A stretch of DNA of 64,000 nt from an uncultured Prochlorococcus sp. (lineage in GTDB: Bacteria > Cyanobacteriota > Cyanobacteriia > PCC-6307 > Cyanobiaceae). The position numbers were made by a program, and so were the translations under genes. The notes under the pieces are model-generated. The model was not told the DNA's origin, made no database searches, and saw nothing but the letters and a program-made list of their open reading frames with translations. How positions within the stretch are numbered: the first letter of the stretch is position 1; each line of letters opens with the position of its first letter. Positions 31,741 to 64,000 of this stretch are shown here, one piece after another. The stretch lies in the NCBI GenBank assembly GCA_902622625.1, contig CACNQS010000003.1:22854-86853 (forward strand). The letters run 5' to 3'.

Positions 31741-33783
31741 TTAATTATTTCTTGCCAATTTTTGTCTTAATTTTTTGATTCTATCCCTCAAATTTGCTGC
31801 TTCTTCAAAATTCAACTCTTTTGCAGCGTCTTTCATTTTAATTTCTAACTTTTCAATTAAGTCAGGTAATTCTTCGAGCAAACATTGATTATCACTGGAA
31901 CTGAGAATTGCGTCAGTTTTGTTATTAACTATATTTATTAAATCTTTAGATAAACCACCAGAATCTAGTTTTCTGGAAAGTTCTAGAAAAGATAATATTG
32001 AATTTTCAATTTTTTTGCCTGCAGGTTTTGGAGTAATACCATTGACTTGATTATATTTTTTTTGAATAGTTCTTCTTCTTTCAGTTTCAGATATTGCTCT
32101 TTTCATTGAATCTGTTAAGTTATCTGCATAAAGCAAGGCAACACCTTCAACATGTCTGGCAGCTCTTCCTATTGTTTGAATCAATGACCTTTCTGCCCTC
32201 AGAAAACCTTCTTTATCAGCATCTAAAATAGCGACTAAGGATACTTCTGGAAGATCTAGTCCCTCTCTTAATAAATTAACTCCTACCAAAACATCATATT
32301 CGCCCATTCTAAGGTCTTGAATAATTTCAATTCTTTCAATTGAATGGATTTCGGAATGCAAATATCTAACTCTTACTTTATTTTCAGATAAAAAATCAGT
32401 TAGATCTTCAGCCATTCTCTTAGTAAGTGTTGTCACAAGGACTCTTTGATTCTTTTGAGCCCGAATTCTTATTTCAGATAACAGATCTTCTATTTGACCT
32501 TCACTAGGTCTTACATCAATTACCGGGTCTAATACCCCAGTTGGTCTTATAACTTGCTCAATAAATTCGCCATCACATTGATCTAATTCCCATTGACCGG
32601 GGGTTGCGCTTATAAATAATGTCTGTTTTGACTTTTCCCAAAACTCTTCACATTTTAAAGGTCTATTATCTGCAGCACTTGGCAATCTAAAACCATGATC
32701 TATTAAAACTTTTTTTCTAGATTGATCACCGTTGTACATCGCATGAAGTTGAGGACATGTTACATGACTCTCATCAACTACCAACAACCAATCTTTGGGA
32801 AAGTAATCTATTAAGCATTCTGGCGGTGAACCTTCTTCCCTACCTGATAAGTGACGAGCATAATTCTCAACTCCATTACAATAACCAACCTCTTTAAGCA
32901 TTTCTAAATCATATTTTGTACGTTGTTCTAGACGTTGAGCCTCTAATAATTTTCCTTCGTATGTAAATTTATCGAGTTGAGTTTTTAATTCACTTTTAAT
33001 TGCACTTATTGCACTCTCAAGTCTTTCTTTTGGAGTCACAAAATGCTTCGCTGGGTAAACGCTAACTTGTTCCAAACTTTCAAGTATTTCTCCTGTAGTA
33101 GGGTCAACATATCTAATAGCCTCGACTTCATCACCAAATAACTCAATTCTTATTAATCTATCTTCATAAGCTGGACCAATTTCTAAAACATCACCTTTAA
33201 TTCTGAATCTACCTCTAGTAATTTCAATATCATTTCTAGTATATTGATTTTCAACGAGAGACCTCAAAGAAGAACGTAGATTTATTGATTTTCCCACTTC
33301 AAATTTAACTGCAGCTTTTAAATACTCACTCGGTATACCAAGACCATAAATACAACTTATTGAGGCTACAACAATTACATCTTTTCTTTCAAATAATGAG
33401 CGTGTTGCAGAATGCCTAAGCATATCTATTTCTTCATTAATTGAAGCAGTTTTGGCTATGTAAGTATCACTTACAGGTACATAAGCTTCAGGTTGATAAT
33501 AATCGTAGTAAGAAATGAAGTACTCAACAGCATTTTTTGGAAAAAATTCCCTTAATTCATTACATAGTTGTGCAGCTAGAGTTTTGTTGTGGGCTAATAC
33601 AAGTGCTGGTCTTCCTGTTTGTTGAATTACATTCGCAATAGTAAATGTTTTACCAGTTCCAGTAGCTCCTAAAAGAGTCTGAAACTCTTTACCAGTATTT
33701 ACACCTTTAACTAATTTTTTTATAGCTTCTGGTTGATCTCCATTTGGTTCGTAAGGAGCTTGAAGCTTATAGTTGTTCATCAA
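31741..33783 (-). CDS. uvrB: UvrABC system protein B
   Basis: [76 protein letters not shown]-terminal UVR motif. Confidence 0.98.
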
Positions 33784-33809: not shown

Positions 33810-34149
33810 CTAAGAAATTTTTTCTCCAATTATTGAATTTTTCAAAGATTCTTTTAAGCCCCTTACAACGGCAATCATCGATATTAAATCATCTAATTTA
33901 TTAACTACAGATCCAACGCCAACCGCTGAGGCTCCAGAGGATATTGCAAGTGGACAAGTTACTTGGCTTAATCCAGAGGCACTCATGATTGGTATATTCA
34001 GAGATTGTTTCTTAAATTCTTGATGAATAGCATAGGTAGCTGCAAGAGTTGGGACTGATTTTTCGAAAAAGCCTTGAATTCCTGAAGAGTAAGGATTTGC
34101 TTCTTAACTCTTCTTTGATTTTTTGTGGCAAAAGATTAATCAGACTCAT
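33810..34149 (-). pseudogene. Degraded DUF561/Ycf23-family gene: N-terminal stub plus frameshifted C-terminal segment
   Basis: From ATG 34149 (reverse): MSLINLLPQKIKEELRSKS then loss of homology and early stop; in another frame up to TAG at 33812: SSGIQGFFEKSVPTLAATYAIHQEFKKQSLNIPIMSASGLSQVTCPLAISSGASAVGVGSVVNKLDDLISMIAVVRGLKESLKNSIIGEKIS*. Both pieces resemble the two ends of DUF561 proteins, with the middle missing. Confidence 0.85.
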
Positions 34150-34234: not shown

Positions 34235-35245
34235 ATGACTGATAAAAAATTAAGTCAGAAAAATTGGTCATCATGGCATCATCAGCTTCATAAGGAGATT
34301 CTTACCAAAAAAATATTAATTCCCAAAGGATCCGATATTTTAATAAGTGTTTCGGGGGGTCAAGACTCAATGGCCTTATTAACCCTAATTAATGACCTAA
34401 AAAAACTACATAATTGGTCTATTAGTGTTTGGCATGGTGATCATCAATGGCACGAAAAATCATCAATATATGCTCTTGAATTAAAAAATTATTGCGAAGA
34501 TAAAAATATTTCATTCTCTTTTGATCAAGCAAATAAAGAAAGTATTTCTTCAGAAGAAAAAGCACGAGAATGGAGATATAAAAAATTATGTGAAAGAGCC
34601 AAAACTTTATTAAATAAAAACCAACAAAAACATAATATTTATTTGTTAACTGGTCATACGAGTAGTGATAATGCAGAAACTTTTATCCTCAATTTATCTA
34701 GAGGAAGCAATTTTGCAGGTCTGAGTAATATTGAGAGTAAAAGATTAATAGAAAATCAAATTTATTTAATAAGACCAATATTAATTTTTAGTAGGGAAGA
34801 TACAAAACAATTTTGCAATGATATGAAGATCCCAGTCTGGGAAGATCCTACAAATTCAGATCTTAAATTAAAAAGAAATTTAGTAAGAAAAAAAATTATT
34901 CCTACCTTAGAAATCATCTATCCTGGTTGTTCTGAAAGGATAAATAATTTTTCCCAAAAAATGAGTAAATACAATAATGAACGTAATGATCTTAGTGAAC
35001 TAGCCTATTTATATTGTAAAAATATTAAAGGGATCGATAGGAATCTCCTAAATAGTATGTGTATTGAAGCGAGGTGCACAATTTTAAATAGATTTTTAAA
35101 AGAAATATATACAAAGCAATGTAGTTCTAAAAATCTTACAAAATTAGCAACTTCAATTTATGAAAAAAATAAAGGTCAAATTAATCTGCAAGAGTTTTTA
35201 AAAATTGTTTGGGATAAAAACTATATAAATTTTGAAAAAAGTTAA
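34235..35245 (+). CDS. tilS: tRNA(Ile)-lysidine synthase
   Basis: ILISVSGGQDSMALLTLI PP-loop, WHGDHQWHEKS, LTGHTSSDNAETFILNLSRGS, PVWEDPTNSDLKLKRNLVRKKIIP. Confidence 0.97.
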   Translation: MTDKKLSQKNWSSWHHQLHKEILTKKILIPKGSDILISVSGGQDSMALLTLINDLKKLHNWSISVWHGDHQWHEKSSIYALELKNYCEDKNISFSFDQANKESISSEEKAREWRYKKLCERAKTLLNKNQQKHNIYLLTGHTSSDNAETFILNLSRGSNFAGLSNIESKRLIENQIYLIRPILIFSREDTKQFCNDMKIPVWEDPTNSDLKLKRNLVRKKIIPTLEIIYPGCSERINNFSQKMSKYNNERNDLSELAYLYCKNIKGIDRNLLNSMCIEARCTILNRFLKEIYTKQCSSKNLTKLATSIYEKNKGQINLQEFLKIVWDKNYINFEKS

Positions 35246-63522: not shown

Positions 63523-64000
63523 TCTAGGGATATTTCTTGATCTTGATTGAACTTGTTGGTTTGATTGATCTCTCGACGTATTATTCTCTTTTTCTGAAGC
63601 TCTCTGCCATCTTTCAACTTTGAAATCCATTTGATCTGGCCAATCTTCGTCCTTACTCTCATTCACATAAGGTAATTTTTTTTGCTCAGTTGTCTGTAAA
63701 TTTTTGGTCTGCCTTAGAGATATTGCTTCTAAAGGTCTTTTTGAGTGCTGTTTAGCTGATTCATAAAAATTTGATTCTCTGGAAAATGTCTTAATATCGC
63801 TGTTATCATCATAAAAATTCTCATCATTCCAATCATCATTATCTTCATCAAAAAATAAATCCACTTTTTCAGATACCCATCTTCCTACTTTTTTAACACT
63901 CTTACTTGTTATTCCTTGAAAATCTGAATTCCTTCTTTTACCTGGCCTAGCACCAGATACTCCATCAACAAATTGTCTTCCAGTTTCGAAAATTTTATCA
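63502..64000 (-). CDS. Hypothetical cyanobacterial protein, acidic/low-complexity middle and Arg-rich C-terminus (partial, N-terminus beyond the right edge)
   Basis: The track's 63864 start is an internal GTG; the frame stays open to the window end: DKIFETGRQFVDGVSGARPGKRRNSDFQGITSKSVKKVGRWVSEKVDLFFDEDNDDWND... Confidence 0.85.
   Translation of the reverse strand, partial: DKIFETGRQFVDGVSGARPGKRRNSDFQGITSKSVKKVGRWVSEKVDLFFDEDNDDWNDENFYDDNSDIKTFSRESNFYESAKQHSKRPLEAISLRQTKNLQTTEQKKLPYVNESKDEDWPDQMDFKVERWQRASEKENNTSRDQSNQQVQSRSRNIPRSRRRRV

Follow-up and report, generated by a model that had tools for sequence, protein, structure and literature searches.

A collapsed DUF561 gene between uvrB and tilS

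The gap between uvrB and tilS in the window, the whole 64,000-nt stretch of Prochlorococcus DNA analysed here, contains 63 nt from the start and 285 nt from the end of a minus-strand gene of the DUF561/Ycf23 family (PF04481). The preliminary description had proposed that this gene collapsed by internal deletion; the collapse is confirmed and now exact, and it is no new kind of thing. Since the junction was seen in no other member of the genus, it is probably an amplification or assembly error or a mutation private to the cell line, rather than the mark of a lineage discarding the gene. We favour a chimera made during amplification or assembly over a real, very recent deletion, and consider this somewhat better than an even bet but not decisively established. 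The features of the locus are as follows.

31741..33780, minus strand: uvrB, intact flank (Pfam; intact in all relatives tested)
33810..34095, minus strand: 3' remnant of the DUF561/Ycf23 gene (gene nt 492-777, residues 165-258 and the stop codon)
33810..33986, minus strand: 58-aa in-frame ORF from an internal ATG, covering the last two barrel strands only
34012..34149, minus strand: 45-aa out-of-frame reading frame produced by the deletion, MSLINLLPQKIKEELRSKSLLFRNSRLFRKISPNSCSYLCYSSRI, closed at 34012
34087..34095, minus strand: junction, the sole kept copy of TCCTTACTC (blastn pieces and computed repeat positions)
34087..34149, minus strand: 5' remnant of the DUF561/Ycf23 gene (codons 1-21, 63 nt, start codon included)
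34235..35245, plus strand: tilS (PP-loop ATPase), intact flank (Pfam)

The 5' remnant opens with an ATG at 34149 and its final 9 nt are the junction word, while the 3' remnant closes with a TAG at 33812-33810; coordinates, strand and both peptides were as first described. The 5' remnant aligned with intact orthologues and was 100% identical over its 63 nt to one relative's intact gene. The peptide read from 34149 begins ATGAGTCTGATTAATC, and its 19 N-terminal residues are the real N-terminus of the orthologue, an intact protein of 258 aa. The 94-residue C-terminal remnant (34094-33813) matched PF04481 over profile positions 162-239 of 243 with E = 4e-19 and 69.2 bits (cut-off 21.6), which excludes a chance origin; an intact relative's protein scored 270.8 bits. 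Both remnants shared 95-100% of their residues with intact DUF561/Ycf23 at the same locus, with the same start and end. They lie in different frames, and residues 22-164 are gone. The earlier identification of the two peptides as the termini of a DUF561/Ycf23 protein is borne out by the Pfam match and by the orthologue's N-terminus.

A chance ORF was ruled out by the Pfam match and the intact orthologues, and so was a conserved non-coding element, which had been named at the outset as an alternative: no such short element was seen, and the syntenic interval of the relatives holds the full 258-codon gene in the same place. A phage origin was rejected, with no match in the phage collection.

The deletion joins two copies of a nine-base repeat

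The deletion took out 437 bp, or 145.7 codons; with a remainder of 2 mod 3 it is out of frame, in agreement with the initial estimate of about 140 codons lost with a frame change. It is flanked by a 9-bp direct repeat, TCCTTACTC, which occurs at nt 55-63 and again at nt 492-500 in the 777 nt of the intact gene. In blastn comparisons with most close relatives the aligned pieces overlapped by precisely nine bases, again TCCTTACTC, which places the junction at 34087-34095 where a position near 34085-34095 had been suggested. The 27-mer across the junction, read on the plus strand, is GAATTCCTGAAGAGTAAGGATTTGCTT.

Of all the internal deletions that this gene could undergo in the range of 60-700 bp, only about 0.008% (about 8 per 100,000) would have end homology of at least 9 bases, and in the relative used only one such word besides TCCTTACTC recurred at that distance. 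This rarity shows that the joining was homology-directed.

Most of the predicted barrel is lost

DUF561/Ycf23 is a core protein of cyanobacteria and plastids with no known function. In the literature searched, no paper was devoted to DUF561, and Ycf23 was mentioned in passing only. The structure predicted for an intact relative has eight alternating strands and helices, at moderate confidence (mean pLDDT 71, pTM 0.77). When this model was compared with the PDB using Foldseek, phosphate-binding TIM barrels came top (E about 1e-9 to 1e-8, TM 0.5-0.7), among them ribulose-phosphate 3-epimerase, thiamin phosphate synthase and indole-glycerol-phosphate synthase. These model-based matches fit the kept GASAVGVGSVV loop, and they do not specify a reaction.

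Mapped onto the predicted fold, strands 1-6 (residues 21-158) lie inside the deletion, and the 3' remnant corresponds to beta-7, beta-8 and the SGASAVGVGSVVNK loop. The window gene thus has no eight-stranded TIM-like barrel, and the frame is broken, with no full-length open frame of about 250 aa over the whole DUF561 profile. Neither leftover frame (45 aa or 58 aa) could form a barrel, although the 58-aa ORF could in principle be translated. Judged from this anatomy, the DUF561 gene would be null in this assembly.

LdpA resembles the start of DUF561

In the genomes examined, the DUF561 profile also matched LdpA weakly, at 18-22 bits. LdpA is a circadian-clock Fe-S protein. Its first ~65 residues (L002 661-1677, on G000:C19) resemble DUF561 strands 1-2, with KLICGASN...AAGVDYIDVAA in LdpA aligned to KVISGLNN...GGADLVDIACKP in DUF561. 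An hhalign comparison of the two gave a probability of 77% and E = 2e-5 over 67 columns. LdpA and DUF561, two cyanobacterial families, may possibly be of common origin.

The lesion is young

Compared with the 30 nearest orthologues, the 3' remnant carried five private substitutions, all synonymous and none nonsynonymous, and the 5' remnant carried none. As all five changes are synonymous, the gene was under constraint until, or almost until, the deletion. The relaxed substitution pattern expected of a fixed pseudogene was absent from the remnant.

The remainder of the window was aligned with the complete genome G012 and the near-closed genome G007. It was collinear with them, in one alignment of about 34 kb and another of about 30 kb, and across the 64 kb there was no indel of more than 9 bp against either genome other than the lesion. 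Nor did the window hold frame-breaking indels inside genes, except for one or two a few bases from a gene end. As the lesion is the window's sole structural difference and the remnant shows no decay, the deletion must be younger than all, or almost all, of the sequence divergence. The five synonymous changes out of five uphold the early impression of a recent lesion.

At its far end, the window stops at position 64000 with the contig itself (G000:C3), at a point that corresponds to about 8650 in L086. More than ten other single-cell assemblies have contig starts within about 170 bp of that point, and DUF561 lies at contig position 29.77-29.93 kb in G113, G162, G126, G099, G166, G216, G096, G147, G079 and others. 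This is a recurrent assembly break across single-cell assemblies. The complete genome G012 continues through the break point, inside a 187-aa gene, and it has no tRNA, known RNA or strong repeat there.

The junction is unique among 266 genomes of the genus

We surveyed 266 Prochlorococcus genomes, this one included. DUF561 scored above the cut-off in 218 of them and was full length in the large majority of those having it. The gene was present in 87/87 genomes at least 90% complete, in line with the initial remark that the family is generally retained, and it was intact in all 32 isolate or near-closed genomes. The closest relatives at the locus (96-97% identical DNA) had the gene unbroken at 258 codons, and its first 21 and last 94 codons were the same as in the window. 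The junction was found neither in the other 265 Prochlorococcus genomes nor in any fetched locus of other genomes. A lesion fixed as a pseudogene should be common to more than one member of the lineage; this one was unique among the 266.

Every genome with a short best DUF561 match was inspected. Losses in G088, G189, G221, G250 and G257 were ruled out, as the breaks were contig ends; G094, G097 and G169, which had no DUF561 match, were likewise rejected, their matching flanks ending at contig ends. The genomes lacking a match were incomplete assemblies, and those with flanks that were checked ended at contig ends. Single-base insertions (+1) were found in a T run in G101 (L068) and in a G run in G144 (L066), and these shifts look like homopolymer errors. 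G211 (L063/L270) had an in-frame 72-bp (24-codon) deletion between two TAAT words. These three lesions and that of the window all lie in assemblies 66-82% complete. Recurrent loss of DUF561 across the genus was thus ruled out by the contig ends, by the homopolymer shifts of G101 and G144, and by the in-frame nature of the G211 deletion.

The search for an intact copy elsewhere in the genome, recommended at the start, found none in the assembly. The relatives are single-copy, and the only other match was the N-terminus of LdpA at 18 bits. The missing middle gave only chance-level DNA matches elsewhere in this assembly, which is 81.6% complete.

Origin of the deletion

The preliminary description had left three options: dispensability, lineage-specific loss, and an assembly or cell-line artefact. 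The first two fared poorly, with the junction in one genome only and a remnant that shows no relaxed evolution. The third now ranks first, though not decisively.

In the artefact we favour, a single event would have brought the two copies of TCCTTACTC together, with loss of the intervening 437 bp. It would be a product of the tube or of the assembler, arising while the DNA of a single cell went through phi29 multiple displacement amplification (MDA) or in the subsequent short-read assembly: a displaced 3' end may have primed anew at the second copy, or a path across the repeat may have been closed by the assembler. The living cell would then have had an ordinary 258-aa DUF561 protein. The named close relatives are nearly all single-cell genomes (plates AG-, AH-, sc- and HOT208_60m), and the statistics of this assembly (1.26 Mb, 56 contigs, 81.6% complete) resemble those of the relatives' SAGs. 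We infer that the source assembly comes from a single amplified genome and that the joining happened outside the cell.

Inverted chimeric contig ends are a typical signature of phi29 amplification. Two were observed in sibling assemblies in the same region, at the start of G040:C1 (L087 1-4689, with a 20-bp overlap) and at the start of G239:C6 (L296 1-909).

The Prochlorococcus SAG data set was produced by MDA or WGA-X, and in benchmarks each 100 kb contained 1.5 misassemblies and 3.0 indels (PMC6122165). In MDA chimeras the segments meet at short complementary words, at most 21 bp long (PMC1855051); the modal overlap is 6 nt, and the distance in inverted chimeras peaks at 250-300 nt (PMC4595205). 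The window junction has short homology of this kind, at 9 bp. Direct-orientation MDA chimeras under 10 kb are rare (11/475), within-molecule inversions being favoured about 26-fold (PMC1855051), and a chimera here would be of this rare, direct class. Also against an artefact, the rest of the 64-kb window is clean, and no artefactual internal deletion of at least 8 codons was found in 1067 neighbouring gene copies (1.43 Mb), a scan that covered the incomplete-assembly set with length-variable segments left out. Frame breaks in these neighbouring genes were counted in 9/1067 copies from incomplete assemblies versus 0/411 from isolates (rough tally, Fisher p = 0.07).

As a yardstick for sequence error, rpsB, an essential gene, was broken away from contig ends in 3/211 genomes (G024, L176; G177, L175; G224, L174), and these breaks are almost certainly sequence errors. 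The rate is about equal to that of DUF561 lesions (4/~218), indicating that broken universal genes arise as errors about as often as broken DUF561 does. Amplification errors should be commoner than fresh nulls of a constrained core gene in wild cells.

A real, very recent deletion in the cell or its immediate lineage is the strongest competitor, and we put its chances somewhat short of even. Replication slippage or end-joining between the TCCTTACTC copies would have removed the 437 bp and inactivated the gene; with the protein gone, the cell would be either a deleterious variant or one that could do without the gene. An exact 9-bp direct repeat is what a natural short-repeat deletion classically shows, the 64 kb are collinear and clean apart from the lesion, and direct short-range MDA chimeras are rare. 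Two internal deletions in about 0.17 Mb of DUF561, versus none in 1.43 Mb of neighbouring coding sequence, also hint that this gene tolerates deletions better; this enrichment is suggestive but not significant once ascertainment is taken into account, because one of the two is the ascertained case. Weighing against a real deletion are the retention of the gene in all near-complete genomes, purifying selection up to the end and the single occurrence, and wild populations would be expected to carry lesions in a constrained core gene only very rarely.

On a broader version of this reading, loss of DUF561 would be tolerated in some wild high-light Prochlorococcus, with real inactivating deletions segregating at ~0.5-1% and single-cell genomes catching them (the one in the window and possibly the 72-bp deletion of G211); we regard this as improbable. 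That some Prochlorococcus clade has dispensed with DUF561 is hardly credible: the presence of the lesion here is all that speaks for it, against a junction seen in no other genome, intact closest relatives (about 97% identical at the locus), match-less genomes that are incomplete assemblies and end at contig ends where flanks were checked, and a remnant showing no decay.

If the deletion is an artefact, it cautions that a gene break seen in one genome only, at a short direct repeat in an incomplete assembly, should not pass for gene loss. If it is real, nature would have knocked out a core protein without known function, which would be of use only if that cell line or its population can be traced. 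Either way, existing knowledge of DUF561 is unchanged.

Comparison with known systems

Set beside the DUF561/Ycf23 family, the copy in the window lacks residues 22-164, has its ends out of frame and cannot be a working member. A parallel within the genus is G211, an incomplete single-cell assembly in which DUF561 likewise has an internal deletion where a short repeat lies. Unlike that in the window, the G211 deletion is in frame and at another position, and it is an independent event.

Natural replication slippage likewise produces short-repeat deletions. The window lesion has the form of such a deletion, with an exact 9-bp repeat, one copy kept and the intervening DNA gone. It also resembles phi29 MDA chimeras (PMC1855051, PMC4595205) in its short shared word, in joining segments less than 1 kb apart and in its restriction to one, probably amplified, genome. 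It differs from them in its direct orientation, the uncommon class, and it is internal to an 87-kb contig, whereas the inverted chimeras of G040 and G239 are at contig ends.
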